Under the pieces are notes generated by a model. That model searched no databases, was not told the DNA's origin, and worked only from the letters and a program-made list of their open reading frames with translations. Below, in pieces: positions 1,604 through 42,316 of a stretch of DNA of 64,000 nucleotides; position 1 is the first letter of the stretch, and each line of letters begins with the position of its first letter. The translations under genes were made by a program, and so were the position numbers. The DNA comes from Armigeres subalbatus (lineage: Eukaryota > Arthropoda > Insecta > Diptera > Culicidae), in contig NC_085139.1 in NCBI RefSeq assembly GCF_024139115.2, positions 6,047,533 through 6,111,532 of the forward strand, written 5' to 3'.

Positions 1604-2083
1604 TTAGGTGGTATTCAACATGTGCTCAACCGACTCCTTCAGCAAAGGCATCTTGCAATTTTCGGCCACGGTCAGAAAGCTGTTAAGCAACCGTCGCAGT
1701 TCACCAGCAGAAATCAAATTCTCAAAGCTTCCAGCACACGAGCAAAACTCGGCCAAGTTCTCCCGCTTGATTTGCTTGCACCGCCCGCAGCGCAGATCCT
1801 GCAGCGTGTAGGACATCATCTTCCGCTCGACCACCTCCAGCAGGCGCATTTCCAATTCTACCGAATCGTAATCCGCATTACACTGCGGACACATCCACAC
1901 TACGCCGCCGTCCCGGATCGCACGATTCCCATCTTTGCGCAGATCCACGTCCCGGCAATGATTGCAAGCCTTGCAGATCACCTCGCTCAGAACGTACGAT
2001 TTCTGCGGCTCCTTCCAGACGGCTTTGTCGCTAAAATCGCCGATTCCCACCAGATGTAGCATATTTCGACGGAGACTTGTTAA
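1604..2083 (-). CDS. POLE1: POLE1 exon 4, C-terminal zinc-binding region
   Basis: Last coding exon: 159 residues plus a TAA stop at 1606-1604. It carries the two metal-binding modules of the polymerase epsilon tail: CysA (C-x2-C then C-x2-C) and CysB (C-x2-C then C-x-C). In the B-family polymerases the second module binds an iron-sulfur cluster and the region contacts the B subunit, here POLE2. The acceptor at 2084 (CTAATAG) keeps phase 0 with the GTAAGT donor at 2142, leaving a 59-nt intron. Another AG eight bases on would shift the frame. Confidence 0.92.
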
Positions 2084-26000: not shown

Positions 26001-29000
26001 GCACAATAGAAAAGTTTGGCTTCAGTTTGACAACCAAATCGATTCTATTCGCACCACCCAGGTTTCGCCTTCTTTAAATGTTTGCATTTGCCCGGTATAA
26101 GGCCGTACCGTCGTAGGGGGTGAGAATGAGTCACTATTTCAACCACTTAGGACGTTTTCATCGCTGGTCTATTTTTTGGTCTATTTTTCTAACAGTTTCA
26201 AAAATATGTGTTCAATAAGTTCGAATACACTTTCAAATTTGTTTAAAAAAATGTAGTTAAATTATTTCTTTTCCCGGTTACATTTCATTGGAAGTATTGT
26301 TTATAAGGAACGTTTGTGACATTTCTTCTGGAATGACCTTTATTTTGTACTTCTTCACGAGCTTCAAACGTTTCGCATGGGCATTTCGTTCCAGATTTAG
26401 AGAATTACGTCTTTAACATAATAAAGGATCAAACAAGAAAATTAAGAGGGTTCAAATCCGGAAAGCTGGGAGGTCGCAAAGTTTTGTCCAAAAAGTCGAT
26501 GAAATTGTCCCCATATAAAGCTTAAATAGCATTTTCCGTGTATAAAGGGTTATCGTCCATGTAGGGCTGATCTCCGTCTTATCACCGGGCCACTGGGGGT
26601 ATAAATCTTCCCCAAAATCTCAGTTTTGTAGTACACCGCAATGATTTTGACCTTCCAAAAATGCTGTTTACAATGCCCCAATCCATGTTCACCGCGCGTA
26701 ATAAACAAACAACAAGTGACAGAATGTCAACACCACACACATCCGTTAGCGTATATAGATAGTACAATCTATAGATGAGCGAAAGCATGGCTGAGTCGAT
26801 TTTTTGCCCGTGCACACGCGCATATGACGTCACAGCCCTTAACGTTACCATTGAAATCGTGACGTCATGCTCGTTTGGAGACACGTTTGACAGTTCGTTT
26901 GGAGACAGAGGATTTATCTTCGCTCATCTATATATTCCACTATCTATATTAGCGTATATATACCGCTAACGCTGACACCAATACTTATACAGAATATGTA
27001 CATTGGGCTTACAAACACAATGATCAAACATTTGTATTCGACCTTATTGAACACCCTGTAGACCACCAAAAATAGACCAAAAAATTGCCGTTTTTACCGG
27101 TGATGTTTTAAAATGATTGTTTTTGTTATTTATTTTTGACATTGGATGTTTGTTCTTTTTTTTATTCGTCTAGGAGAAAAAAGCTAATTGTTCGTTCAGG
27201 ATTTTTTTTTCAAATTAAGTGTTTTCTCTTGAGATTTCCACAATATATTTAGATGTGTTCCTTCTCATACACTGAAAACCAAAACTACCCAAAAGTGGGT
27301 TGTTTGCACTCAAAACCGTGGTTTGGGCCAATAACCCAAATTTGAGTTAAATGACTTTTCTGGCACTAGGTAGTTTGCCTTTAATCCCATGTAAACAATT
27401 TACCCAAAGCTGAGTTTAATTTATCCAAAGCGGACCTTGATCAACCCAAAATAGAGAATATTGAATTTACTCAAATTTGGGTTATTGGGCTGAGCAACCT
27501 CGGTGAGGTGTTTGCATCTTGCTCTAGTTTTGATAGCAATCATGGGAAAAAAGGGAAAACTACCCAAATTTGGGTAAATTTTTTCTGCGATATTCTCAAT
27601 AGTGCGTATATTGAACTCAAAGTTTGGGTTGATTTATCTGTCCGTGTACTACAGAGAGGAATTAAGTTATCAGGACAGGATGACCGTCAAAATCCGCGGG
27701 GGGTAGGAAAACACCAGTTCCGTAGCGGTCGTTGCAAAGAAAATCTTCCCACGCCGGGTTCTAGTTCCTCGGGGGCAGCCTACAAAGGAAATTATTAAAA
27801 CTGAACCTTCGAACTGACTACAGAACGAGGCTCCGTCGAACTACACAAATAAGCTGGGTGAAAAACGTTCAATGGCATCAACACTCCTCCATCGGCTGAT
27901 AAACGGCGACAACCAATACTACTCTATCGTCCTGGATAGTACGATACACTCTTGAAGGAGTTCTTGAAGTAAGTCCTGGAGGAGTTTTTGGAGGAACTTC
28001 TGGAGGAGGAATTCTTGTAGGAGTTCCTGGAAGAACTTCTGGACTTCCTGGAGAAAATTTTGAAAGAATTGCTGAAGAAACTCCTGAAAGAATTTTTGGA
28101 GGAATTTGTGACGGATGAATTCTTAGAGGTACTCCTGGAGGATTTCTTAGAGAAACTCCTGAAGGAATTCTTGGAGGAACTCCAGGAAAATTTCTCCGAG
28201 GAACTCCTAGAGATTTTCTTCGAGGAACTTCTGGAATAGTTCCTGAAGGAACTTCTTATGAAACTTTTGGAGTTCTTGTATTCTTATTATTATTTTTTTT
28301 TGAAAGAATGGCTGGAGAAACTTCAAAGGAATTCTTAGAGGAACTCCTGGAGCAGTTCTTGGAAAAACTTCTGGAGGAATTCCTGGAAGAATTCTTAAAG
28401 AAACTCTTGCAGGAGGAATTCTTGGAGGAACTCCTGGAAGATCTCCTTGAGGATCTTTTAGAGGAATTCCAAGAGGAACTCCTGGAGAAATTCTTGAAGG
28501 AACTTCTAGAGGAACTTCCAGACGATTTTTTGGAAAAATCCCTGATGGATTTCTTGGAGGAAATTCTAAAGAAATTCTGGGAAGAATTCTTGGAGAAACT
28601 CCTGGAGGAATTCTTGGAGGAACTTCTGGAGGAGGAATTCTTGTAGGAGCTCCTGGAGGAATTTCTGGAAGACTTTCTGAAGGTGTTCGTGGAGGACCTG
28701 CTGAAGGACTTCCTGGAGAAATTTTTGATAGAATTGCTGGAGAACTGAACTTCTGAAAGAATTCTTTGAGGAATTCATGGAGGAGTTCTTGGAGGAATTT
28801 TTAGAGAAAGTCCTGGAGGAACTCTTGCAGAAAGAATTCTTGGAGGAACTTCTGGAAGATCTCATTGATGAACTTTTAGAGGAATTCCAGGAGAAATTCG
28901 TGAAGGAACTTTTCAAGGAATTCCTGGAAGAATTCTTGGAGGAACTGCTGGAGGAATTTTTGAAGGAACTCCTGAAATAACTTTCGGACGAATTCCTTGT

Positions 29001-32000
29001 GAAACTCCTGGCGGAATTCGTGGAGGAACTGCTGGACGAATTCTTGAAGGAACTCCTAGAGGAATTTCTGGAGCATCTCCTGAAGCAGTTTCTGGAAGAA
29101 TTCTTTGAGGAATTCCTGGAGGAATTCTTGAAAAAAATCCAGGAGGAATTATTGGAGGAATTTTAAGAAAAAATTCAAGAGAGAAGGAACTCCGGAGAAG
29201 CTTATGGAGGAATTCTTGAAGAAGTTCCTGAGAGAATTCTGGAAGGAACTCCTGGTGGAATTCTTAGGGGAACCCCTAGCGAAATTTGTGGAGGAGCTTC
29301 TGGAGGAATTCTTTGAGGAAGTTCTGGAGGAATTCTTGAACGAACCCCTGGAAGAATTCTATGGAGAACTCCTGGAGGAATTATTTGAGGGACTCCTGGA
29401 GGAAGTATGCAAGGAATTCTTTGAGGAACTCCTGGTGGAATTTCTGGAGGAACTTTAAGAGGAGCTCTGGAGAAACTTCTGGAGGAATTCTTGAAGGAAC
29501 TCCTGGAAGAATTCTTGAAGTAACATTGGCATTTGGGGGACGTTCTGGAGGAATTCTTGAAGGAACTCCTAGAGAAATTCTTTGAGGTACTCCTGCATGA
29601 GTTCTTGTCGGAACTCCTAGACGAATTTTTGGAGGAACTTCTGGATAAATTTTTGGCGGAGCTCCTGTAGAAATTTCTGGATAATCTCCTGAAGGAGTTT
29701 TTGGTGGAATTCTTCGAAAAACTCCTGGGTGAATTCTTGGGGGAACTCCTTGAGAAATTCTTGAAGGAACACCTGAAGACATTTTTGAAGAAATTCTCTG
29801 AGAAACTCCTGAATATTTCCTGAAGGAACTCCAGGAAGAATTTCTGGAGGAATTTCAAGAGAAACTCCTTGTCAAAATCATTAAATGATTCCCGCCGAAA
29901 CACTGGAAGGATTCACGCCAGAATCCGCGAAGGGTTTGTAAAGAATGTGAAGAATTTCCGTCGGAATCCGCGAAGAAATCTTGTCGTAATCGCTGATGAA
30001 TTTTTGTCGGCATCTGCGAAGGATTGAGTCAAAAACGGGAAGGATTTCATTCAGAATTTGCTACGGGTTCACATTAGAAATCGAACGGTTCCCGTTAATT
30101 TTTTGCGAAGTATTCCTGACGGTACTCGCGAAGAACTTTTACGTCAGAAACCGCGGATTCCCGTCGGAATCTGCGAGTTTCCCGCCGTAATTTGCAAAGG
30201 ATTCCCTACGGTATCTGCTATAAATTCCACTCGGATTATGTGAAGGATTCCAGATGGAGCTGCGAAGGAATCTTGTCAAAATCCTCAACGGACTCCTTTC
30301 AAATTTCGCGTATGATTCTGTGGATTGCCTCTCAGCTCTTTCAATTCACAGTGAACCTAAAAAGATTAAATTTTGTTAAATAGTATGCGTTAAAAATATT
30401 TATAATTACCAACATTGTCGGAATCTGGTGAAATATTATTTAAAATAAATAAAATCCGCGGAAGATATTCATCAAAATACGCGAACATAAACATAAATAA
30501 AACTCTTCTTTGTATTTTTATTGGGTTACAAAATTTGGAGCAGACTGCAAATTCTGGTCTAAAACTCAGAAAAAATGAAACAGTTTTAATTTTTTGAATC
30601 AAAACTGTTCGAAAAATAAATTTAGACCGCTCCGGTGAAAATGGTGAAAATGGAAAATTTTTGGTCTATTAAACTGTCAAAATTTGGAATATACTGACAC
30701 CAGTGAAAACGTCCTTAGATTGGATTGAGGGCAAGAAGACTAAAGACTAAAGGCTCCCCCAGACCTAAGCGGTTCGCCGCGACGGCGACAACCAATCACC
30801 GCGATTCTATCGTTGGGTCGCTGCAGGCAATATCCTATTTACGCTTCCATACCTACGGCGACAGAATCGCTGTCGCCAAGCGATGGAATCGCGTCACGGC
30901 TGTCGCGTCGCATGTGTTTGAGGGAACCTTAAAATATAAGAGACCTTTTTGGACGATTTTGCTCTTTGACCTCCACACTGCCAGAGTGAAAGCGATGACC
31001 CATTCTCACCCCCAGACCCATTGTCACCCCCGTTGTGGTGTCGGTAGTCGTATTTGCAAATATGTTTTGCTTCAAAACATTCTAAATTAATGATTTCGTG
31101 TGTGTTACTTCTACGTGAAGTTAAACGATTTACAATGATATGGAAATGCTAATATCATCTTCCAAACTTGGACGTACATGTTCATGATAGCATTAGAGGC
31201 GAAAGTATAGAATTGATAGTTCCGTTAGGATACGGCAGGCATGAAGAATGTTTTTATAGAAGTCGATTTGACAGCGAGCGGAGGGCAATATTTGAACCGG
31301 TGCCAGCGAAAGTGGTACATGTTACATTGAGTAAATTTTACAGGAGACGCATTTTTCCAAAAACCTCAAAAATAAAATTCGAATTAGCTATTTTCTGCAA
31401 TTTAACTGTACCAACGTGTTATGACTGGTGTGCCTAAAGGTAGTAATGAGAAATATGTGAAGTTTCTTGACAAATTTCAAGTTTGTTTGAACAAAATGCA
31501 CATGTACCACTATTAATGGGAACAAAATGCAACAGAAACCGAAAATCGTTGCCAGTAAAAGTGGTACATGTTCATTTATAAAATTATTTTAAACGGCAGT
31601 AAACCGTTTTGAAATTTAAAATAGTGTTAGAATCTGTTGCGGGAACATCTTTGTTGTTGATTTTTCTTTTCAATAAGCTGATTTTAGCGGGTAGAACTGT
31701 ACATGTACCACTTTTCCTGTCAACGAAATTGCCATTGTGATATATACCAGAAATTAAAAAGTGCATATCTCCAGATTTAGTTGTCAAAAATCACTTTTTC
31801 GTCATTCCCTTACCAGATCTTTGCTAATAGAAGCCGTTGGTGTGAAAAACACAAAATCGACGAAAATGGTTTATGTACCACTTTCGCTGGCACCGGTTCA
31901 TTTGTGATGGCACATATCGCACGACCTTCCTTCTGCCAAGCTCCCGTATGAAGGGGGAGGGAAGAATATCAGTGTGGAAGCTGATATAGCCAGTGGAGAT

Positions 32001-35000
32001 ATACGATGATATACGATGATATACGAATGCAAAAATGGTAACTTGGCTTAGAAACCTCGCATCGCAGTTAATAACTGTGCTGAATGAACACTAAGCGGCG
32101 AGGCGGCTCTGTCCCAGTGTGGGGATGTAATGCCAATAAGAAGAAGAAGAAGAATGTAAACTCAATGATTATTCGCTTTACATAATAATTAGGTGAATTT
32201 TGAGGCTTTACAAAGCTAAAGAACACATTATTGAACTACTTGTAACATAAGTAAAATTAAACCTGCAAATTGGTATTCACCGCGAAAAGTTTCACCGCGA
32301 AATAGTACTAACCGCGGAATGGTATACCGCCAAATAATATAAACCGCGAAATGTTATACCGCGATATGATACTGAACGCGAAGTGGTAGACCGCGAAATG
32401 GTTAACCGCGGAATGTTTTACCGCGAAATGTCGTACAATCGTCGCTGCTTGCAACCCACATTGCGGCATACCAATTTCGGTCCACAGTTTTTCACTGAAT
32501 GCGAACATCAAATTAACTAAAAGCGTCTTGTTTTTCCTGCTTCCTCTCTTCCGCTCCTTAGCATTTTCGGATTGGAAATTGTCTCGACCTCCCTGGGCAT
32601 AAAAGTATCATCGTGTTGGCATCATGATATAGGAATGCAGAAATGGTAACTTGGCTTAGAAACCTCGCAGATAATAACTGTAGAAGTGCTTGATGAATAC
32701 CAAGCTGCGAGGCGGCAATGTCGCAGTGGGGGATGTAATGCCAATGAAGATTGAAGACGAAGACGACCGATTTCCAAAACAAAAGCCGCCTCCGGTTTTA
32801 CACTTTTTCACGATCTATAATCCAAATCCTGTGGGTGTTGTTTTGACACACAAGACGTTTTGAAGTAAAAAGAAGCAGTACCTACGGGTTATTGGTGAGA
32901 ATGTTTAGATTTTGGAGTTTCACCAACAGGAACTAATTTTTCCACAAGCACATGTAGCAAAAGGCGTGAAGATAAAATTTTGGATTGCAATTATGTGAAT
33001 TCGTCTATGGAAAAAGGCCTACAGAACAAACACGAGCCCTTTTACCTTATGTAGCATCATCGTCATCATTACCACCGTCATGCACTGTAGGTCGGTGTGG
33101 CAATCACAGCATCCTACCTGAGAGGATGCAACATCCACCGAGGAATGATACTCTACTCCAATAAATTATTCTCTCTTAGAATCTCACACATTAAACTATT
33201 GTATCGATACCTATTCTTTTCCAACACTCTACACACGAACAATTGTACCCGAATTGAATTTTATAATAAAGCAGACCAATTAGTATTAGCTCACTACTCA
33301 ATCGGAGCACATCTTTCTTTGCCTCATACAAATTAATTGTACGTCGGGCTGATCGCCGAAAGATAATCCCACCGATTGAAAGAGCACTAAAGTGGTGACC
33401 CCGACGTGATCATCCACACAATAGACACTGTGTTTTTTTTTGTCTATCGCGAATCGTGAAGTCGAAGTATTTGTCGGTCGATTACGTTTGCTCAAAATGT
33501 CGTTGGAAGAAAAATCCAGCTCCAGCGGTGCGGTTGGGAATCAACCAACAGTCGTCGAGGCAATAAACGCACCACGACTAAATCCCCCCAGCATGGCCGA
33601 CACGAATATCGAGACATACTTTATGTCGCTCGAATTCTGGTTCGCAGCATCAGGGATTAGTACCCATCCCCAGCACGACTCCCGCAAGTATAACATCGTG
33701 ATGGCACAGGTGCCGCCAACCAAGTTGACCGAGCTACGGTCGATTATCGAGGCTACCCCAGTGAATGACAAATACGTTTACATCAAGACCAAGCTGACCG
33801 AGTATTTTGCGGATAGTCAGCAGCGACGTCTCCAGCGTGTTTTGTCCGATATGCCCCTAGGGGACCTAAAACCCAGCCAGCTCTTCAACGAGATGAAGCG
33901 AGTTGCAGGAAATTCGCTCGGTGAAGCGGTGCTGCTCGACCTGTGGGCAACCAGATTGCCGCCGCATGCCCAATAGACTGGCCCAGGAAACAAAAAGTTG
34001 TCTAATTCCACGGGGCACCCCCCAGAATTGTGTCTTTGGGTGAGAAAATCAATCTCTGAAAATTTCAGCTCAATCGCTTGTTGCATAAGCTGGCGCATTT
34101 GATTTGAAGTTTGTATGGGGATTTCAGCCAAAATGTATAGGAAAATACACCTCCGTCACTCATTCGATCTGGAAATTGGTTCTGATTGCTCGATTAACCT
34201 CAGAATTGCAAAAAGTGCAGTTAGGATGTTACAGAGCTATTTTACAGAACATTGTACAATGATTAAATGAACTTTTATATAGTTTTCAACAACAACAACA
34301 ACAACAACATTTTGTCTCCCCATACTAAGCTGGGCCAGTCTAATGCCCAAGCAGCAGTGATCGCCTCGAGAGGAGATGCAGCAGATAAAATCACCATCGC
34401 CGACGCCATTGTGGACTCGATGGTTTTGCGTAAAATTAATTCTATCGACCATCACGCGCAAAATTTTGCAATGGCGGTTTCAAGCGATCTGGAGCCTTCA
34501 GCTATTGATCCGTTGCAGGAGCTTAAGCGGAAATTGCGGAGTTATCCAGGCGGCTCGAAAAGTATTGCCTTCATCAAAAAATGTTCGCGGTCGTTCTCGT
34601 TCCCGTTCACGTGGGGGCGAAAAGCATCGCACACGTCGTGAAGAAGGATCGTCAACTGGACCATGTTGGTATCATCGCACATTCGGGAACGATGCCCGAA
34701 GATGCCGCAAACCCTGCACACATTGCCAACAAAGTTCCTCCAACCAACAATGACATCACTTTGCTGATACTGTGGTGGAAATTGGCGAACTTTCCAACAC
34801 AGCCGCAATTTATCGCCTAAAATTTCCGGACTCTACGACGCATATGCAGTTTTAATTGACACCGGAGCTGATGTGTCCGTCGTACCGAAAGAAATGAATT
34901 CAGCTAAAGTGAAACCAACAACGATGAAATTGTTCGCCGCGAATGGGACGCCAATTCAAGTTTACGGTGAGGTGTTGCTTAAAGTGAATCTCGGTCTCCG

Positions 35001-38000
35001 CCGCGAGTTTTTGTGGACGTTTATAATCGCCGACGTTACTTCGGGAATAATCGGTGCCGATTTTATATGCCACTTCGGTTTATTAATTATCGACAACAAC
35101 ACCCATCTTGAGTCGGCCGGGCTGCTTACCCGGACCAGTGAATATTCGATTAAGACTTTTAGTGCAATGTCGCCGTTCGCTGAGATACTGGCCGAATTTT
35201 CAAGCATCACTCGCCTTGCAGCCCCGGGTACTATCAGCAAATCATCGATCGTTCACCGCATCGAGACAACCGGCCAGCCAGTCTCCGCCAAACCACGCCG
35301 ACTTCCACCGGATAAACTCGAAGCTGCCCGCACCGAATTCGAACATCTTATGAAGCTAGGAATCTGCCGACCGTCCAGCAGCAACTGGGCCAGCCCGCTC
35401 CATATGGTAAAGAAAGCGGATGGTTCCTGGCGGCCATGTGGAGACTATCGTGCCTTGAACGCCCAGACAATACCTGATCGATACCCGTTGCCGTACCTAC
35501 AGGACTTCACGACCATTTTGCAAGGTAAAACAATATTTTCTAAAGTTGACTTGCAGAAGGCCTTCCATCAGGTACCGATCCATCCAGATGACATCTCGAA
35601 AACAGCCATCACGACGCCGTTCGGTCTGTTTGGTTTCTCGTTCATGACGTTTGGATTGCGAAACGCAGCTCAAACATTTCAACTTTCCACGAGGTTGTTC
35701 GGGGATTGGACTTCATATTTCCCTACATCGACGATTTGTTCATCGCCTCCTCATCCCCCGAGGAACACCGTGACCATTTACGCCAGCTGTTTGAGAGGCT
35801 CAAGCAGCACAATCTGGCAATAAACGTTGCTAAATGTGAATTCGGCCGTGAGGCTCTAGACTTTCTGGGACATTCCGTTTCCGCCGAAGGCATTCGGCCT
35901 TTACCGGAGCGCGTTGAGGCCATCCAGAACTTTAACCAACCATCAACAGTGAAGGAGTTGAAGTCATTCTTGGCCATGATAAACTTTTATCGAAGATTTA
36001 TACCGAAAGCCATCGAAGCTCAGATTCCGTTGCTGGCAATGACCCCTGGCAACAAACGCAACGATCGCTCCAAATTGGCATGGACTAGTGAAGCCACAGC
36101 CGCATTTGAGAAATGCAAGCAGCAACTTTCTCAAGCTACACTTCTCGCACATCCCGCCAAATCCGCAGAATTGTCGCTGTGGGTCGACGCATCCGACGTT
36201 GCAGCAGGGGCGGTGTTGCATCAGGTCATCGCCGAAGAAGTTCAGCCATTGGGTTTTTCTCGAAAAAGTTCGACAAAGCTCAGTTACGCTACAGCACCTA
36301 CGATCGCGAGCTTACAGCGATCTTCCTCGCAGTTCGGCACTTCAAGTTCATGTTAGAAGGACGAAGCTGCCACATCTACACGGACCATAAACCGATCATC
36401 TTCGCCTTCCGTCAGAAACTCGATAAGGCATCCGATCGCCAAGCTCGTCAGCTGGACTTCATTGGGCAAATAACAACGGATATCCGACACATCGTTGGCA
36501 GGGACAACATCGTCGCTAATTTACTTTCCCGTAGAGTAGAGTGGGGCAAGAGTACGCACTTAGTTTTCAATCGATCATGTGGCCCTTATGAAACAAGCTT
36601 CTGCATATCAAATCAGTGTCGATGATTCATATACTCTTCCTTTATGTTACCCAGTGGAAAAAATATTGAAATTATTGAGATTCGGTTTAGTAGAACCCTT
36701 ATTGCAAGACAAGTGAAAAACGCACTCTTACCCCACCGGTGGGGTAAAAGTGCGCATTGGGTGGGGTAAGAGTACGCATTTATCCAATCATGTGCTTTAA
36801 GTATATATTAACACAGATAAGAGTTAATAACATTTAATTGATGTTTAATGAGCATATATTAGGGAATGTTTAAAGATTACGTAACTTTTAAAAGGGGAGG
36901 GGTCCTAAAAATGTGCACTTTCATACGAAAAACCATTGTTTTTTATATATACAAAAAACTACAGAGGTAAAAATATATATCAGGTTTTGCGTGGCGTATA
37001 CAAAGGCATTTTCCTTAAAGAAAGTCCACCAATCACGTAACGTAAAATTTGGCTATTTCATCACCCCTCCCCCCCTATCTTACACTATTTGTATGAATCC
37101 TCTAAAATTATATGGATCGTCACACATCTCACAACCCCTCCCAGCAAAACGTTGCGTAATTTATGAATGTTTCTTTTGATTAAATGAAATTATAATTTTG
37201 ATGAAATTGTGTTTTCGTACTATGTTTAGGTGTACAACAAGTCCTAATACAGTTTCATTATTTCGCTTCAGTGCTTTGTTCGCTAAGTCCTTTCTAACAC
37301 CGAATTACTTCAACTTATCCTAAAAACTTGTGATAATTTCAAATTTTGTCCCTTTTTTCTTAGTTGTGGATCTTTACGCTTTGGAAGAAGTCTTATTTCA
37401 GCCGGAGATACGGGTTTGACATCATAACTTGAAGATTCATATGCGTACTCTTGCCCCACCGGTTCATGCGTACTTTTACCCCACAGTCCCAAAAATTATT
37501 CAAGTAATGGTTTTGATTTCTTGGAAAACCAACCGGATTGGTGTTCTGTACCATAAAGTACTCTATACAATAGGTTATCGAAATGGTATAATGTTCACCT
37601 GATTGAACGTATATGTGGTAATGAAATACTAGTTGCGGAAACCCAATTATTTTAAGCAAAATGACTTAAAAGTTATTTAACTCCATATCTCCCTTGTTGT
37701 TTATTCAAATCGTTTACAATTACACATGATAATAGTTGGCCAGAATACCTGTCAAACTGATGCAGTGCTACTAGTTTATCTTTTTTTATTACTTCAAAAA
37801 TCGAAAACGTACTCTTACCCCACGCGCACTCTTGCCCCACTCTACTCTATAGCTGCCATCCAAAGCACGCCCTCTCTAGATTTCGGCGCACTTGCCGAAG
37901 ACCAACAAACCGACGATGAACTTCGAAATATTATAGAAGGTAAATCGCATTCCTCATTGAAGTTAAAACTTTTTACTATTCCAGGCAGCGCAAAACAACT

Positions 38001-40097
38001 GTTTTGTGATGCCTCCGGTGGTCACATTCGCCCATTCGTTACGAAACGCTTTCGTAAAGTCGCTCTCCAAGCGACGCACCATCTGGCACACCCTGGCACT
38101 CGTGCGACAGCTAAATTGATGACGGAGAGATTCGTTTGGCCAGGAATTCGTAAAGACAGCATCACTTTCGCCAGATGTTGTTTACAGTGCCAACGTTCAA
38201 AAGTTACACGCCACACCCAGTCACCGGTAACCCGGTACCCAATGACGGACTGTCGATTTGCGCACATCAACATCGACATAGTTGGACCGTTCCCTCCAAG
38301 TAGAGGAAATCGCTACTGCCTTACTGTTATCGACAGGTTCTCAAGGTGGCCCGAAGCATTTCCCGTTCCGGACATGACTGCACCAACCATCGCTGAAGCT
38401 TTAGTCACCGGATGGATTGCTCGTTTTGGCGTGCCAACCTACATCACGACCGACCAAGGACGTCAATTCGAGTCATTACTATTTTCCGAGCTAACTCGCA
38501 TGCTTGGAGCAATGCACATACGCACGACTGCATACCACCCTCAATCGAATGGTATAATCGAACGGTGGCACAGGAGTCTTAAGGCGTCGATTCTTTGCCA
38601 CGACACCGAGCGCTGGTGTGACCACCTACCGGTGATTCTGCTCGGGCTGCGGACGGTATATAAGGAGGACATCAAAGCTTCACCTGCTGAGATGGTATAT
38701 GGAACAACTCTCCGAATACCGTCTGAGTTTTTTGTCGACAAGTCAAAGATTTCCAACGAAGTTGAATTCGTTGCTAACCTTCGAAAAGCCATGCGTAATC
38801 CGCGACCGAAGGAAAGTGCTTTTCATGGAAGTCGCAACGTCTTCGTTCATCAGGACCTTCAATCATGCCAACATGTTTTTGTACGGAACGATTCAGTGCG
38901 ACCATCGTTATCACCTCCATATGAAGGACCATTCGAGGTGATAAACCGTTCTAACAAGTTCTTCGTCGTGAAAATGAAGGGACGATCAGCAAATGTTGCG
39001 GTCGACAGACTGAAACCTGCCTACACTCTGGAAGAACAACAATCACCAGGAATTTCTGCATCCTCACCTACTTGCACCGCCACGACTCCATCGACTAAGG
39101 TCACTCGTTCTGGTAGACGAGTTATTATCCCCTTCGCTATCGCTAGATGGAAACCTAGTCTAGGAGGGAGTACTGTAGCATCATCGTCATCATTACCACC
39201 GTCATGCACTGTAGGTCGGTGTGGCAATCACAGCATCCTACCTGAGAGGATGCAACATCCACCGAGGAATGATACTCTACTCCAATAAATTATTCTCTCT
39301 TAGAATCTCACACATTAAACTATTGTATCGATACCTATTCTTTTCCAACACTCTACACACGAACAATTGTACCGAATTGAATTTTATAATAAAGCAGACC
39401 AATTAGTATTAGCTCACTACTCAATCGGAGCACATCTTTCTTTGCCTCATACAAATTAATTGTACGTCGGGCTGATCGCCGAAAGATAATCCCACCGATT
39501 GAAAGAGCACAAAGAATTATAAGGCAGCCTATTGCATGTCATGTTAAAGTGTTAAATTGTAATTGTAATTTTTATTGGGAACGATAACCGGTTAATTTAC
39601 ATTTATTATCGGGTCAAGGAAGGGAAATTATAATAAATTTCTATCTGTGTCCAACCGGGTTAGACTATGTTTGCACTAGGGCCTTGTAACATGTTATTCG
39701 GCTATCTTGATGAGCTTTCTTTTGTCGATAACTATGACATGTTATTTAGACCGTAGGTAGTGCGGTATTACGGGATTTCTCGAAATAACTTGCATTAAAA
39801 AAAAACGATATTTGGGGAAAATGGGCAAAATCGAAAACAAATCACATACCGAATGCATGTTGACCAAGTATCCGGTTCGTTCCTGCGTGTCCTTGACTCG
39901 CTCGTATCCATACTTGAGATCGATTTTGTCATTCTCCTTCGACTGCCGATATCCGATCTCGTTGGTGTCATCTCTATAGGAAACAAAACCATAAAAAATC
40001 ACTAGAATAAACTTCCGAATTTCACTAAATTCAACTGCACTTACCCTTCCGCTTTCTCTGGAATATATTTTCCGGTGTTTTGTACGTAATTTGTCAT
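1604..40097 (-). CDS. POLE1: DNA polymerase epsilon catalytic subunit, 4 exons
   Basis: Leading-strand replicative DNA polymerase with 3'-5' proofreading, acting in the nucleus with POLE2 and two small histone-fold subunits. Joined exons on the minus strand are 40097-40045, 39973-39850, 8055-2143 and 2083-1604. All junctions are GT/AG and keep frame, giving 2189 codons; animal orthologues are about 2200-2290. Exonuclease motifs are visible: Exo I with FDIETTK near residue 265, Exo II with [10 protein letters not shown] near 352, Exo III with SDAVATYY near 453. Polymerase motif A ([10 protein letters not shown], near 618), B (NSFYG, near 805) and C (DTDG, near 852) are also present. A basic, Ser-rich linker separates this half from the inactive polymerase half. 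Two C-terminal Cys pairs of pairs follow, near 2067-2098 and 2129-2146. The ORF starting at 8061 begins with Met-Gln from the intron; that start is false, because family alignment needs the upstream exons. Identification is firm; intron 2 length depends on correct assembly. Confidence 0.93.
2143..8055 (-). CDS. POLE1: POLE1 exon 3, catalytic core and inactive second polymerase half
   Basis: One exon of 5913 nt (1971 codons) without interruption. It holds the exonuclease domain, the whole polymerase fold, the linker and most of the degenerate second polymerase module. A QRRISEMF stretch just before the linker resembles a PCNA-interacting motif (Q-x2-I-x3-F), which is only suggestive. The acceptor TTTGCAG ends at 8056. 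The first codons (TELLNQD) continue directly from exon 2, which ends in NMHS; this matches the NMHPTE segment of animal orthologues. Base composition is clearly richer in G+C than the flanking intron. Confidence 0.95.
8370..8505. mobile_element. decayed foldback MITE copy
   Basis: Arms containing GGAGCAACGCACAACTG (8391-8407) and CAGTTGTGCGTTGCTTCC (8454-8471) are inverted to each other around an AT-rich centre. The same arm sequence occurs in the intact 220-bp palindrome at 50993-51212, so this is an older, eroded relative. Ends cannot be set precisely. Confidence 0.5.
8566..9316 (-). pseudogene. non-LTR retrotransposon ORF1 (gag-like) relic
   Basis: Two minus-strand open frames (9316-9092 and 9090-8560) read as one protein broken by a frameshift near 9091. 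The distal part has a CCHC zinc knuckle, C-x2-C-x4-H-x4-C ([14 protein letters not shown]), as in ORF1 proteins of I/R1-type non-LTR elements, which bind element RNA. No reverse transcriptase follows it, so it is a fragment. The upstream end is cut by the foldback MITE at 9331. The exact clade is not determined. Confidence 0.6.
9331..9484. mobile_element. 154-bp foldback MITE, CTCGCTTAAC family
   Basis: Termini CTCGCTTAAC and GTTAAGCGAG; the arms are inverted over about 65 bp each (ACCTAAGYAACATTTTTTTC and its complement). A 4-bp ATTT duplication flanks it (9327-9330 and 9485-9488). A longer relative with a 4-bp AATT duplication is at 52988-55701. Confidence 0.8.
9680..10090 (-). pseudogene. 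hAT-like transposase fragment
   Basis: A minus-strand open frame (10085-9681) contains C-x-CHSL...A, then an [12 protein letters not shown] stretch about 25 residues on. This arrangement is typical of the catalytic C-terminal half of hAT/DUF4371-type transposases and their domesticated relatives. The reading frame appears shifted near 9770. No start, no N-terminal BED finger and no intact DDE triad were found, so it is a relic. The assignment rests on a short motif and is tentative. Confidence 0.4.
10679..10881. mobile_element. 203-bp MITE with TA duplication
   Basis: Inverted ends CACACTTAA and TTAAGTGTG, flanked by TA on both sides. The two arms are inverted copies of a segment rich in TTCGGTAAATTTCACCGA, so it folds into a long hairpin. 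Tc1/mariner-type by its TA target. Confidence 0.75.
10921..11205 (-). mobile_element. full-length tRNA-derived SINE (Feilai-like)
   Basis: Minus-strand SINE of 285 bp. The B box GGTTCGATTCC is at 11142-11132 and the A-box-like TTAGCTGTGCGG at 11197-11186, giving an internal RNA polymerase III promoter. The 3' end is a (GAA)n tail (TTCTTC on the plus strand at 10921-10938). A 10-bp duplication CGGTTTCATC flanks it at 10911-10920 and 11206-11215, showing a clean insertion. Sequence and layout match what I know of Feilai from Aedes aegypti; this is the best clue to the organism. Confidence 0.88.
12890..14063 (-). pseudogene. Pao/Bel retrotransposon pol, RT tail and RNase H part
   Basis: Minus-strand frames 14046-13435 and 13420-12833 carry the YMDD-type catalytic box of reverse transcriptase (MYMDDFLSG) and the Pao-specific region after it. 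An RNase H-like part follows ([11 protein letters not shown], then [14 protein letters not shown]). Frames are shifted near 13430. Upstream sequence of the same element continues at 19079 after the 5.0-kb foldback insert. The 3' end abuts the hAT-like element end at 12889 and no LTR is seen, so the copy is truncated and inactive. Confidence 0.85.
14487..16230 (+). repeat. left arm array of 141-bp units
   Basis: Spacings of the phrase ACCACTCTGT are 143, 140, 143 and 143 bp over 14561-15130. Unit variants differ by single bases and by small indels around CCCCGGGGGAAGTGGCC. The last units (from about 15790) carry a variant block with ATTTTAGAACCAGCAGCT. Confidence 0.9.
16240..16900. pseudogene. 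captured non-LTR reverse transcriptase tail pieces in the foldback centre
   Basis: Minus-strand translation of 16890-16705 gives the C-terminal reverse transcriptase segment with [16 protein letters not shown] and [14 protein letters not shown]. The same piece lies inverted at 16250-16435. The core between them (16440-16690, minus) gives [10 protein letters not shown], another hallmark of the extreme C-terminus of such proteins. So the palindrome centre is built from two parts of one retroelement tail. Confidence 0.7.
16930..18790 (-). repeat. right arm array of 141-bp units (inverted)
   Basis: About 13 copies of the same unit as the left arm in opposite orientation. One copy near 18400 is shortened (the CCCCGGGGG block is lost) and one near 17985 lacks part of the same block. 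Outside the array the arm ends with about 290 bp that mirror 14187-14480. Confidence 0.9.
19079..20132 (-). pseudogene. Pao/Bel retrotransposon protease and RT start
   Basis: Minus-strand frames give an aspartic-protease-type DUF1758 region ([10 protein letters not shown], then FGWIVCG), then the start of reverse transcriptase ([21 protein letters not shown], split here only by length). Several frameshifts lie around 19500 and 19870. This is the same element as 12890-14063, interrupted by the foldback insert, and continues upstream at 20704 after the hAT-like MITE. Confidence 0.82.
20133..20695. mobile_element. 563-bp hAT-like foldback MITE in Pao
   Basis: Inverted ends TAGGGTGGCTC and GAGCCACCCTA. 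The arms are inverted copies over more than 200 bp (for example GGGCCGTC/GGCGGCCC zones and the AACATTCTGTATTTAATTC zone). Flanks TTGTGGGG (20125-20132) and CTGTGGGG (20696-20703) form an 8-bp duplication with one mismatch, as expected for an older hAT insertion. Confidence 0.8.
20704..20781 (-). pseudogene. Pao/Bel fragment between two insertions
   Basis: Short Pao segment lying between the hAT-like MITE and the 11.65-kb element. It has the HHTLL stretch that follows the zinc-knuckle cysteines of Pao polyproteins. The cysteines themselves lie on the far side of the insertion, at about 32450-32480. Confidence 0.75.
21129..21320 (-). repeat. copia 3' LTR
   Basis: 192 bp, starting TGTTGGGATGG and ending CATTA on the minus strand. 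It differs from the other LTR by a few bases and one indel in the AAAATGAGTTTTATTC zone. Confidence 0.92.
21328..22551 (-). pseudogene. copia reverse transcriptase and RNase H
   Basis: A 407-residue open block beginning at the FLNGTL segment of copia reverse transcriptase. YVDDVLI is the catalytic box. RNase H features follow: the SDADWA motif, then the LSSTEAEL motif with its conserved Glu. The N-terminal part of the domain is in another frame (22709-22527), so a frameshift near 22550 breaks the protein. It ends 8 bp before the 3' LTR, which is usual for copia. Confidence 0.9.
22810..24187 (-). pseudogene. copia integrase region, frameshifted
   Basis: Three minus-strand blocks (24187-23714, 23804-23523, 23394-22810). 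The first has the H-x3-H...C-x2-C zinc site ([16 protein letters not shown], then CESCVAGK). The second has [18 protein letters not shown] sequence holding a catalytic Asp. The third has the chromatin-binding-side linker ([14 protein letters not shown], then [10 protein letters not shown]). Frameshifts lie near 23715 and 23460. Confidence 0.88.
24227..25304 (-). pseudogene. copia gag and protease region, frameshifted
   Basis: Gag ([20 protein letters not shown]) starts right after the primer site. A basic stretch follows, then the CCHC knuckle, then the protease active site [12 protein letters not shown]. Breaks occur near 24940 and 24560. Confidence 0.88.
25307..25499 (-). repeat. copia 5' LTR
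   Basis: 193 bp, near-identical to the 3' LTR, with the tRNA-Met-type primer site starting directly at its inner end (25306 downwards). Confidence 0.92.
26770..26932. mobile_element. 163-bp MITE with TA target
   Basis: Inverted ends TATAGATGAGCGAA and TTCGCTCATCTATA. Subterminal inverted TGACGTCA-containing segments lie at 26825-26832 and 26859-26866. TA duplications are included in the ends. No coding capacity. Confidence 0.75.
27270..27645. mobile_element. MITE rich in AACCCAAATTTGGGT motifs
   Basis: Ends resemble those of the better preserved relative at 60938-61286 (AAACTACCCAA at the left; GTCCGTGTA at the right). Inside are many direct and inverted ACCCAAA/TTTGGGT motifs. Boundaries approximate. 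Confidence 0.5.
27958..29890. repeat. degenerate minisatellite, GGAACTCCTGGAGGAATTCTTGA unit family
   Basis: About 1.9 kb of units alternating GAGGAACTCCTGGA and GGAATTCTTGGA, roughly 12 and 24 bp, much diverged. Units of 12 bp keep frame, so long Leu-Glu-rich frames ([10 protein letters not shown]) appear on the plus strand and Ser/Pro-rich ones on the minus. These are by-products of the repeat and I do not call them genes. The interval between 28270 and 28300 is a T-rich spacer. Confidence 0.85.
29890..30330. repeat. second degenerate minisatellite, AAGGATTCCCGTCGGAATCCGCG family
   Basis: Units of roughly 25-30 bp with cores GATTCC and GTCGGAATC(C/T)GCGAAG, directly adjoining the previous array but with a different consensus. 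Heavily mutated, non-coding. Confidence 0.65.
31294..31899. mobile_element. 606-bp MITE with long inverted ends
   Basis: GAACCGGTGCCAGCGAAAGT at 31294 mirrors the right end exactly (ends at 31899), with GTGGTACATG/CATGTACCAC zones repeated internally in both orientations. ATTT flanks both sides, a possible 4-bp duplication. No transposase. Confidence 0.75.
32040..32155 (+). mobile_element. 5'-truncated Feilai-like SINE
   Basis: Starts in the AACTTGGCTTAGAAACCTCG zone and runs to a (AAG)n tail near 32150; A and B boxes are missing. It is the same family as 10921-11205 in the opposite orientation. Confidence 0.8.
32450..32530 (-). pseudogene. Pao/Bel fragment upstream of the 11.65-kb insert
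   Basis: The minus strand carries the Cys residues of the Pao zinc knuckle (CRNVGCK), immediately upstream of the point where the HHTLL part continues at 20781. Stops appear upstream, so the element is already decayed or truncated here. Confidence 0.7.
32572..32770 (+). mobile_element. partial Feilai-like SINE
   Basis: Contains the GGAAATTGTCTCGACCTCCC, GGCATAAAAGTATCATCGTG and AACTTGGCTTAGAAACCTCG blocks and an A-rich tail with GAAGA repeats; the tRNA-like head is missing. More diverged than the copy at 10921. Confidence 0.75.
33050..33387 (+). repeat. gypsy 5' LTR
   Basis: 338 bp beginning TGTAGCATCATCG and ending near GAAAGAGCAC. It contains AATAAA at 33160-33165 and ATAATAAAG near 33264. 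It differs from the 3' LTR by one extra C near 33245. Confidence 0.92.
33497..34760 (+). pseudogene. gypsy gag, split by a hAT-like MITE
   Basis: Starts at ATG 33497 (MSLEEKSSS). The capsid-like part runs to 33965, and the frame resumes at 34351 after the 369-bp insertion. The CHCC finger is in the frame 34376-34753 after a shift near 34600. The protein would package element RNA, but this copy is broken. Confidence 0.8.
33974..34342. mobile_element. 369-bp hAT-like MITE in gypsy gag
   Basis: Inverted ends TAGACTGGCCCAG and CTGGGCCAGTCTA. Exact 8-bp duplication ATGCCCAA at 33966-33973 and 34343-34350; it fits the hAT preference nTnnnnAn. A CAA microsatellite lies at 34291-34311. Gag is continuous if the insert and one duplication are ignored. 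Confidence 0.88.
34800..36533 (+). pseudogene. gypsy protease, reverse transcriptase and RNase H
   Basis: Protease active site DTGAD at about 34857. Reverse transcriptase: [13 protein letters not shown] near 35545, [10 protein letters not shown] near 35650, then a frameshift before YIDDLF at about 35722. RNase [15 protein letters not shown] near 36185, then a frameshift near 36250 before STYDREL and YTDHKP. It ends at the TA insertion site of the next element. Confidence 0.88.
36534..37847. mobile_element. 1.3-kb TA-target element with GTGGGGYAAGAGT motifs
   Basis: Inverted ends GAGTAGAGTGGGGCAAGAGT and its complement, flanked by TA (36532-36533, 37848-37849) inside the gypsy frame. The end motif GTGGGGYAARAGTRCGCA recurs inside: direct at 36736-36780, inverted near 37443-37490 and 37805-37840. 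An inner zone (36880-37180) looks like a separate MITE (CCCCTCCC and GGGGAGGGG). No transposase. Confidence 0.82.
37850..39173 (+). pseudogene. gypsy integrase
   Basis: Zinc site H-x3-H...C-x2-C (HHLAHPG, then CCLQC), catalytic Asp in [10 protein letters not shown] and TTDQGRQFE, and Glu in NGIIERWHR. This domain appears uninterrupted, about 440 residues, but lacks its upstream partners in frame. Confidence 0.88.
39174..39510 (+). repeat. gypsy 3' LTR
   Basis: 337 bp, near-identical to 33050-33387. It lies about 340 bp from POLE1 exon 2. The interval 39511-39849 shows no further repeat structure I can name. Confidence 0.92.
39850..39973 (-). CDS. POLE1: POLE1 exon 2
   Basis: 124 nt between the acceptor CCTATAG (39980-39974) and the donor GTATGT. 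It encodes [14 protein letters not shown] and [11 protein letters not shown], which matches the conserved N-terminal segment of animal POLE1 (DKMDLRFGFERLK, then TGWLINMH). Frame joins exon 1 after two bases (GG|A) and ends in phase 0, which fits exon 3. Confidence 0.92.
40045..40097 (-). CDS. POLE1: POLE1 exon 1
   Basis: ATG at 40097-40095, 17 codons plus two bases, donor GTAAGT at 40044-40039. No longer upstream frame is available. The N-terminal tail of POLE1 is poorly conserved in the family, so the start rests on splicing logic. Confidence 0.85.
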
Positions 40098-40509
40098 TGT
40101 AATTCACAAAAAAATAACTTCACATAATGCAAACTGCGACTCAAATGTTTTCGTGAAATTGACGAACCTTCGAGTTTTGACAGCAGTTGGGCTGCATTTC
40201 GCGCCTTTCGTGAATAGAGCTGTGCGCCGTTTGTTGTGGTTTGTGCAAGGCGTCGGTGTGGAGTTGTCATCCCCAAACTGCTTGACGAACGATCGTTTGG
40301 TTCAGAGTGGACCGTCTTTTGCAGTGACCAATGCCACATCTTATGATTCGCGACGCTCGCAACTGATGAACAGAAAGAAGAAAGCGCGCATTTTTGTTGA
40401 CGTCTCTTGAGTTGATCTGCGCTGCGCGCGGCGCAAACAAACATCAACAATAACTGATGTGAGGTGCGGTGTTGAGTGTTTAATTTATGGTAGAATAATT
40501 TTCAAAAAA
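40098..40509. promoter_or_regulatory. shared bidirectional promoter of POLE1 and POLE2
   Basis: 412 bp between two divergent start codons; it must hold both 5' UTRs and both promoters. It contains TTTCGCGCC at 40197-40205, a full match to the E2F consensus TTTSSCGC that drives S-phase genes in animals. It also has a near match, GGCGCAAA, at 40430-40437, and a locally G+C-rich stretch around 40380-40440. No TATA box is obvious on either strand. Co-regulation of the two subunits is inference. Confidence 0.75.
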
Positions 40510-42316
40510 ATGAGTGAAATACCAAAATTAAAGGCGCAAATTGTGTCATGGTTTAATATAAGCGGATTTCAGATACGAAGGTGAGTACCAGAAATGATTT
40601 TTTACAAAATTAAGACTATAATTCAACTCTAAAGCAGTCTTTAGTTGGCATGATGGATCAATTTCATCCATTTAATAATTTCCCTATCCCCCTCAACAGC
40701 GAAGCAAGTGTGTTTCTAGCGGAACAAATCGTTTCACTCGCCGAACCGACCCGTAAGCAATGGCTGCAAAACATTGCCGGTCACGTGCAAGGCCAGAACC
40801 TCGATCTACCGGTCGTAGAGAAGAAACATATCGAACTGGCCATCAAGGAAGCGAACAACACCGGCTTGGAAGACAACGAAACCATCTTCAGCGTGATCAA
40901 CGCCTATGACGTTCCCCGCTTTCGCTTCAACGAGGAGAAGAAAAAGTTTTTGCCGGACAGTGGCAAACGGGGCTTCCTGCCGGGGCCGGACGCCAAAGCC
41001 GAATACATTCGGGAGCGATATCTGACGTTGTGGCAGAAGACCAGCCGGCATGAGATGTTCAATACCAGTAAGGTTTCGATGCAAGATGTTAAGCGATTGA
41101 CGCTGAGAAAGATCGAACTGTTACTGTCGACATCCAAAATGAAAGAGGTTCGTGAATCCTTGTTTTTTGTTCCATTTTATAGTCTTAAGTTTTTTTTGCA
41201 GGTGGTAGTCCTTGGCCTCCTGACCCAACTGACCGAAGGTAAATTTTATCTGGAAGATCCTACCGGTGTCGTACCGATTGATCTTAGCGAAACTGTTTTC
41301 TCATCCGGACTGTTCTGTGAGGGCTGCTTCGTACTGGCCAGTGGGACCTATAGCGACGGCACGCTCAAAATCGATGAACTGGGGTTCCCTGTAACAGAGC
41401 CGGCCTCCAGTAGCAGGGCATTCTACGGTACGGTCAACACCTGGGGAGGACGATCCAAAACTCTGCTCAAGTACTCAAAAAATTTGACCGAACTGGAGCG
41501 TAATTCCGGTGGAGATAGCATCGTATTCTTGGCTGATTGTTGGTTGGATAATTCGATAGTGATGAAAAAGTTGACGCAGTTGCTAGTTGGTTACAACTCT
41601 TTTCCTCCACGGGCAATTGTACTAATGGGACCATTCAGTAAATCTAATGACAATCCTTACCATTTGAAGGAACGATTCCAAGCGTTGGGTGAGATCTTGG
41701 CATCATATGACTCGTTAAAAAGAGAAACAGATATAGTCTTAGTGCCTTCTTGTGAAGATCCCACAATAGCCAACATCCTTCCCCGCCCTCCGCTACCACA
41801 ATATCTAACGGCTGACCTAAAAAGAAGCTATCCCCGACTAGTACTGGCAACCAATCCGTGCCGGCTGCAATACTGCACTCAGCAAATCGTAGTTTGTCGG
41901 TCAGATCTGGTCACAAAGCTCTGTCGTAATACGATCCATTTTCCGAAGAGTGGCCAACTTGCCGATCATGTAAGTCAACACCATAGTCATCAACGTTTCA
42001 TGCGGTCATTCTTTAACTTCTAACTTGTCAACGTTTACAGTTTGCCCGTACTCTCATCAGTCAGGGAACGTTGGCGCCGCTCCATCCGATCGCTTGCCCT
42101 ATCCATTGGAACTACGACGCTGCCCTAACGCTTTACCCGCTGCCGGATCTGATAGTCATCGGCGACACCTGCCAAGGGTTTCAAACGACCGAACAAAGTT
42201 GCACGGTGTTGAACACCGGATCGTTCCCCAAGTCCAATTTTGGGTTTAAAGTTTACATTCCGACATCGCGGGTTGTGGAGGATTCACAGATCCCGGATGA
42301 TCACGGTGGGCAGTGA
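40510..42316 (+). CDS. POLE2: DNA polymerase epsilon subunit 2 (B subunit), 4 exons
   Basis: Non-catalytic second subunit of the replicative polymerase epsilon. Exons are 40510-40580, 40700-41147, 41202-41969 and 42041-42316; the product is 520 residues (human about 527). Exon 1 gives the small N-terminal helical domain start (SGFQIRS, completed across intron 1 by EASVFLAEQ). The OB-fold-type region (VLGLLTQLTEGKFYLEDPTG) and the inactive calcineurin-like phosphoesterase domain follow (VFLADCWLDN, PFSKSND, FVLVPSCEDP-like zone, ATNPCRLQYCTQ, NTGSFPKSNFGFKVY at the end). Metal-binding residues of active phosphatases are not conserved, as usual for B subunits. Introns are 119, 54 and 71 nt. The 54-nt intron has a weak donor (GTTCGT) and is in frame, as is an ATG at 40650 inside intron 1. 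Confidence 0.95.

Follow-up and report, generated by a model that had tools for sequence, protein, structure and literature searches.

To our knowledge, genes for partners of one complex seldom adjoin in animals. A locus in the mosquito Armigeres subalbatus, in a window of 64,000 nucleotides (the whole stretch analysed) on contig NC_085139.1, raises the question of why POLE1 and POLE2, the genes for two core subunits of DNA polymerase epsilon, a replicative enzyme, lie back to back. The 412-bp strip between them is a plausible but unproven candidate for a shared promoter that may switch on both genes together, because the two appear to be neighbours in malaria mosquitoes and seemingly lie apart in fruit flies and moths. 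No earlier report of the pairing was found in the literature searched.

Gene models and arrangement

POLE1 and POLE2 form a divergent pair of intact genes over 412 bp, each at one locus. They encode proteins from opposite strands and are transcribed outward, their ATG codons (40097 on the minus strand and 40510 on the plus strand, respectively) pointing apart. The 412 bp are counted from ATG to ATG, and a noncoding exon may lie further upstream of either; a bidirectional gene pair has been defined by <1000 bp between the starts of both genes (PMC2871058). The preliminary description had reported this head-to-head order, and its coordinates for the two start codons, the POLE1 exon 2/3 junction (39850|8055) and the POLE2 end (42316) were all exact. 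The features are as follows.

1604..2083, minus strand: POLE1 exon 4, cysteine-rich C terminus and stop codon
2143..8055, minus strand: POLE1 exon 3, from residue 60 to roughly residue 2030, with exonuclease, polymerase and the greater part of the C-terminal half
8056..39849, minus strand: POLE1 intron 2, 31,794 bp, with many repeats and transposon remnants
39850..39973, minus strand: POLE1 exon 2, running to codon 59; aligned; genome match C1:6087379-6087507
40045..40097, minus strand: POLE1 exon 1, from the ATG at 40097 through codon 17 plus two bases; N terminus aligned
40098..40509, no strand: spacer between the start codons, 412 bp, presumably containing a divergent promoter region and the 5' leader of each gene
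40197..40204, plus strand: E2F-like 8-mer TTTCGCGC within the spacer; weak evidence
40398..40403, plus strand: CRE-like half site TGACGT within the spacer (0.19 expected); weak evidence
40510..40580, plus strand: POLE2 exon 1, beginning with the ATG at 40510
40700..41147, plus strand: POLE2 exon 2, in-frame join
41202..41969, plus strand: POLE2 exon 3, in-frame join; genome search
42041..42316, plus strand: POLE2 exon 4, stop codon; genome search

The four POLE1 exons, on the minus strand, are intact and join in frame to encode 2189 aa, and the introns (71, 31,794 and 59 bp) are all GT..AG. Residues 1-512 match the solved POLE1 structure 9f6k, which we take to be human, with an E value of 1.2e-208, and the match to known POLE1 spans the full length. 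POLE2, intact and likewise of four exons, lies on the plus strand at a single locus in the genome and encodes 520 aa. It matches the solved POLE2 structure 5vbn, presumably the human protein, with an E value of 1.7e-135 and 455.9 bits, against 22.5 bits for POLA2, and no POLD2 chain was listed at E 0.001 in the solved-structure search. Both predictions are 100% identical to NCBI Ar. subalbatus proteins across 2189 and 520 aa, respectively; because this identity extends along the whole length, the NCBI models include the tiny POLE1 exons. The earlier suggestion that models lacking POLE1 exons 1 and 2 would hide the pairing is thus inapplicable to this species, but incomplete POLE1 models may hide it elsewhere, e.g. 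in Toxorhynchites, where the isoform listed has 1785 aa.

The 31.8-kb intron, long and full of repeats, is the feature that could point to exons 1 and 2 being a pseudogene or part of a misplaced contig, with the real start of POLE1 elsewhere. Such an artefact of assembly or annotation is extremely improbable. The two exons encode a conserved N terminus that continues without a gap into exon 3 in 17 of 17 POLE1 proteins chosen for alignment from the protein search (Ar. subalbatus, 15 other named Diptera and one further record); some of these vary by a few residues in length around the exon 1/2 junction. A search of the whole assembly (six candidates scored, exon 1 being too short for a match of its own) gave three POLE1 matches, all at the present locus and one of them exon 2, and found no second copy of exon 2. 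The segment 40000-40600, spacer included, is single copy, its one genome match being itself. The identical NCBI POLE1 sequence, the linkage in other mosquito assemblies and the consecutive An. gambiae identifiers (see below) also speak against an artefact. Neither a misassembled POLE1 pseudogene nor the use of other 5' exons, both raised beforehand as objections, found genomic support.

Linkage in other insects

Linkage was scored where both genes lie on contigs of equal length, a measure from which adjacency and orientation are not readable. Such contigs carry both genes in six of seven mosquito rows (Ar. subalbatus counted) and in both sand fly rows, and in none of those for Brachycera (0/7), a chironomid (Clunio; 0/1), Lepidoptera (0/13) and other insects (0/2), so that the genes are on different contigs in all 23 non-mosquito, non-sand-fly rows. 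The Uranotaenia value of 50,000 is apparently a cut-off; for An. darlingi the two values are unequal, possibly owing to the use of different assemblies. The equal-length contigs point to linkage in five mosquitoes besides Ar. subalbatus and in the two sand flies. Together with the order of the An. gambiae identifiers (see below), this suggests a neighbourhood that predates Ar. subalbatus. The earlier remark that no such pairing is known in Drosophila agrees with contigs of unequal length in all three drosophilid rows.

In An. gambiae, POLE2 is AGAP004614, as read from the name of its An. sinensis homologue, and AGAP004615 is listed against the fly gene FBgn0264326 (PMC6150542), which is Drosophila PolE1 (PMC7714529); the POLE2 and POLE1 identifiers are therefore consecutive. 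In Ae. aegypti, the corresponding identifiers are AAEL002800 (POLE) and AAEL002785 (POLE2), with POLE3 being AAEL001764 and POLE4 AAEL010085 (PMC6849265). The identifiers and equal-length contigs make it probable that the neighbourhood is of long standing in mosquitoes, Anopheles and culicines alike. In whole-assembly searches of Ar. subalbatus, POLA1 and POLA2 are on different large contigs, as are POLD1 and POLD2, which indicates that pairing of catalytic and B subunits is no general habit.

A rearrangement may simply have placed the two genes back to back, each with its own promoter and independent regulation, the pair then surviving because any break inside the 412 bp would harm one or other of two essential genes, with joint output irrelevant. 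We give this account appreciable weight, although we consider it the less probable one. The separate contigs in all 23 of the rows named above favour it, indicating that the pairing is dispensable. In mouse, the gene for the same catalytic subunit, Pole1, likewise has a close head-to-head neighbour, the two start codons being 393 bp apart; the partner there, however, is Pxmp2, an unrelated peroxisomal channel gene, and 'independently regulated expression' is reported (PMC2662417), so close head-to-head spacing by itself is no proof of co-regulation. Against chance adjacency, the mosquito partner gene encodes a subunit of the very enzyme to which POLE1 belongs, and one that binds it directly, the fly PolE2 protein being described as binding PolE1 in this way (PMC7714529). 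The neighbourhood also seems to persist across mosquitoes despite transposon-rich genomes (the Armigeres genome paper gives a transposon share of 63.0%; PMC12333114).

The spacer as a candidate promoter

Among 22 motif patterns tried on the spacer, 10 had matches, including the E2F-like 8-mer and the CRE-like half site. An E2F-like 8-mer is present in 6.5% of the window's 412-bp stretches and in 3.7% of shuffled spacers, so the single site is near chance and weak as evidence. The spacer also carries CCAAT (1.15 expected) and, on the minus strand, a pair of initiator-like sites, whereas the pattern scan of the 412 bp found no match to DRE, TATA or Motif-1. CpG content is mildly raised, 17% of intron windows having as many CpGs. 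Pattern scan and shuffling revealed no clear shared motif, as would be expected of neighbours with separate promoters.

On balance, we nevertheless favour a true divergent pair, whose promoter region would contain common elements and activate both genes jointly, the integrity of the region helping to keep them together. Within the 412 bp, two core promoters would lie back to back in a single region of open chromatin and share activating elements, so that POLE1 and POLE2 expression would increase in step when cells divide or endoreplicate; the need to keep the region intact would have helped to hold them side by side. Less firmly, we suggest that what selection maintained may have been the supply of the two subunits at exactly 1:1. 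In D. melanogaster, co-expression of divergent genes increases as the distance between them shortens (rho -0.16; PMC3129673), and functional relatedness is likelier in conserved divergent pairs of metazoa and fungi (PMC2871058). A paper on Cyc knockout in Ae. aegypti names AAEL002800 (POLE) as upregulated; AAEL002785 (POLE2) was not found in a search of the main text, which is no test of the POLE2 response. Two promoters within 412 bp might instead compete or interfere, one gene being limited when the other fires. For divergent pairs at large, anti-regulation has been mentioned (PMC2871058), with nothing specific to POLE1-POLE2, but both proteins are presumably needed simultaneously in one complex, which makes opposite regulation quite unlikely.

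Known divergent pairs and significance

COL4A1 and COL4A2 likewise encode two chains of one assembly and diverge from a short shared region. They reportedly have a bidirectional promoter and a shared enhancer, whereas a shared promoter of POLE1-POLE2 is a candidate. Unlike the two collagen genes, which are related, POLE1 and POLE2 are not known to be homologous. The collagen region measures 118 bp in human (PMC2871058, Table 2), and the pair is conserved across metazoans with few exceptions (PMC12141075). The Hsp60/Hsp10 genes (HSPD1-HSPE1) and histone H2A-H2B are also divergent partners of one complex with short spacers (49 and 304 bp in human, respectively), but have higher conservation scores (0.39 and 0.54, against 0.15 for COL4A1-COL4A2; PMC2871058), whereas POLE1-POLE2 linkage is confined to the mosquito and sand fly rows.

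A bolder and doubtful extension is that, since POLE2 and POLE1 met in the fly lineages from which mosquitoes, and perhaps sand flies, descend, one bidirectional promoter has jointly set both outputs for well over a hundred million years, with the polymerase alpha and delta genes scattered. The apparent contrast between paired and unpaired genes within one insect order allows a direct question: does promoter sharing tighten subunit balance? If the proposal is true, Diptera would be a natural experiment, with paired genes in mosquitoes and split genes in Drosophila, on linked promoters and the stoichiometry of the replication machine, and a compact two-way promoter of dividing cells, if functional both ways, could become a tool for mosquito genetics.

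Gene models and genomic copy number of POLE1 and POLE2

The genes for the catalytic (POLE1) and B (POLE2) subunits of DNA polymerase epsilon are arranged head to head in the window, which corresponds to positions 6047533–6111532 of the large contig C1 in the 1.34-Gb assembly. The features are as follows.

40097–40045, 39973–39850, 8055–2143 and 2083–1604, minus strand: POLE1, 4 exons, 2189 aa
40098–40509: spacer between the two ATGs
40510–40580, 40700–41147, 41202–41969 and 42041–42316, plus strand: POLE2, 4 exons, 520 aa

The two start codons point apart and are separated by 412 bp, and the head-to-head arrangement noted in the preliminary description is exact in both gene models and ATG-to-ATG spacing. 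The POLE1 ATG is preceded by an in-frame stop codon at a distance of 9 bases and the POLE2 ATG by one at 102 bases; therefore, neither coding frame crosses the spacer. On its plus strand the spacer contains 7 ATGs and on its minus strand 6, and some of these would fall in long 5′ leaders.

The window derives from Armigeres subalbatus, as NCBI proteins of this species match the two predicted proteins end to end at 100% identity. The concern that gene models missing POLE1 exons 1 and 2 would hide the pair does not apply to the NCBI annotation of this species. POLE2 matched the solved POLE2 5vbn (E = 1.7e-135), and residues 1–512 of POLE1 matched the solved POLE1 9f6k (E = 1.2e-208). POLE1 exons 1 and 2 encode the conserved N terminus, and no gap separates it from the exon 3 portion in an alignment of 17 proteins picked from the homologue matches (Armigeres subalbatus, 15 other named Diptera and 1 further record). 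A whole-genome search with POLE1 yielded three matches, all at the POLE1 locus (exon 3, exon 4 and, at C1:6087379–6087507, exon 2); exon 1 gave no match of its own because its 53 bases are too short. The DNA around the spacer (window positions 40000–40600) matched only itself in the genome, and a search for the POLE2 family (PF04042) returned four matches, namely two POLE2 exons at the locus, POLD2 and POLA2. The possibility that the 5′ exons of POLE1 represent a pseudogene or a misassembly was rejected on the basis of the gapless N-terminal alignment and the single genomic locus. No published report of the POLE1–POLE2 pair was found by title or abstract opening in the open-licence literature, and the Armigeres genome paper (PMC12333114) does not use the term 'polymerase epsilon' in its main text.

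Repeats and transposon remnants around the two genes

POLE1 intron 2 contains two arrays of a 143-bp satellite (14479–16241 and 16916–18791), which lie 674 bp apart in opposite orientation and form a 1.76-kb inverted repeat with 92% identity. In the RNA of the intron, they could pair to give a very long double-stranded hairpin, from which small RNAs might arise. An LTR-type retrotransposon remnant encoding reverse transcriptase, RNase H and integrase (34768–39288, plus strand) is also intronic, runs opposite to POLE1 and ends ~560 bp from POLE1 exon 2. Pao-type peptidase, Copia-type reverse transcriptase and SH3-like fragments were found on the minus strand of intron 2 (12833–13441, 21328–22635 and 22810–23481). 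Downstream of the POLE1 stop codon are a 453-bp (GT)n run (1–453) and about four 174-bp tandem units (460–1195), and the tandem arrays downstream of POLE2 (44909–45236 and 45884–46435) are built of a 67-bp unit, with 94% matches, and of short repeats resembling GGATTT.

The spacer as a candidate divergent promoter

In a scan of the spacer with 22 motif patterns, 10 were matched, including a single E2F-like 8-mer, a single CRE-like half site and two minus-strand initiator-like sites; TATA, DRE and Motif-1 patterns were not found in the same scan. Among 412-bp stretches of the window, 6.5% contain such an E2F 8-mer, and the copy in the spacer is thus weak evidence. Closely spaced divergent genes in Drosophila tend toward co-expression, although the study that shows this reports such gene order as not conserved (PMC3129673). 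Several pairs of partner genes, e.g. COL4A1/COL4A2, HSPD1/HSPE1 and H2A/H2B, are described in head-to-head layout (PMC2871058). That POLE1 and POLE2 share a divergent promoter region and are expressed in a coordinated way appears somewhat probable. Neutral adjacency of two genes with independent promoters is a less probable reading, for which there is a precedent in mouse Pole1 and Pxmp2, unrelated genes that lie 393 bp apart head to head and are reported as independently regulated (PMC2662417). The preliminary description, which suggested a shared bidirectional promoter, exceeds the evidence in its interpretation.

Linkage of polymerase subunit genes within the genome and among insects

POLD1 (locus L012) resides on contig C3 whereas POLD2 is on C2, and POLA1 (locus L014) resides on C3 whereas POLA2 is on C1 at 39.1 Mb; a REV3-like gene is likewise on C3. 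The PF00136 search of the genome gave 30 matches, among which three loci (L012, L013 and L014) were identified, the others including weaker fragments; POLE1 itself scored only 28.8 bits. No tblastn matches to POLE1 or POLE2 were found in the flanks of POLA2 and POLD2 (~7–10 kb on each side, E threshold 0.01). From the locations of the alpha and delta genes, it follows that, among the three replicative polymerases, the catalytic and B subunits are linked only in epsilon. The idea that the catalytic and B subunit genes of replicative polymerases are generally paired in this genome was rejected, as those of alpha and delta are on different contigs. The remaining epsilon subunits are not obviously nearby, judging from the distant identifiers of Aedes aegypti POLE3 and POLE4 (PMC6849265). 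Downstream of POLA2, an open frame (L007:8347–8949, in the POLA2 flank region) resembles, as judged by eye, an IMMP1-type mitochondrial inner membrane peptidase.

As AGAP numbers run in gene order, the consecutive numbers AGAP004614 and AGAP004615 point to POLE1–POLE2 adjacency in Anopheles gambiae. The former is POLE2, as taken from the name on an An. sinensis homologue; the latter is listed beside the fly gene FBgn0264326 with the label 'Pol theta' (table in PMC6150542), and FBgn0264326 is Drosophila PolE1 (table in PMC7714529). The number just below these two, AGAP004613, belongs to the dopamine receptor GPRDOP1, located on 2R (PMC3265452). In Ae. aegypti, the identifiers of POLE1 and POLE2 (AAEL002800 and AAEL002785) are close (PMC6849265), which suggests that both lay on one old supercontig without implying adjacency.

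A linkage table was compiled by hand for 32 species that are named representatives in both the POLE1 and POLE2 homologue listings (120 rows each) and for which both listings give the size of the carrying contig; species present in a single listing, or with no contig size in one of the two, were dropped, e.g. Anopheles atroparvus, An. funestus, Culicoides, Vanessa tameamea and Helicoverpa armigera. Rows represent 90% clusters, with the longest contig taken as the named species' own, and the Armigeres row carries the true size of C1 (318,640,189). POLE1 and POLE2 were on contigs of equal size in two of two sand fly rows and in six of seven mosquito rows (Armigeres subalbatus counted), of which the Uranotaenia row, with a value of 50,000, is uninformative. 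Contig sizes differed in all rows of Brachycera (7), chironomids (1), Lepidoptera (13) and other insects (2). No Bradysia or Chironomus POLE1, wanted for dating the linkage, was present among the 120 matches listed for a Pseudolycoriella POLE1 query, and scans of IMG/VR and of prokaryote genomes with POLE2 yielded no relatives. The best reading is that the pair was already present in the mosquito ancestor. Sand flies may either truly share the pair or just have the two genes on the same chromosome; in the former case, the Clunio row would imply loss in chironomids or separate gains.
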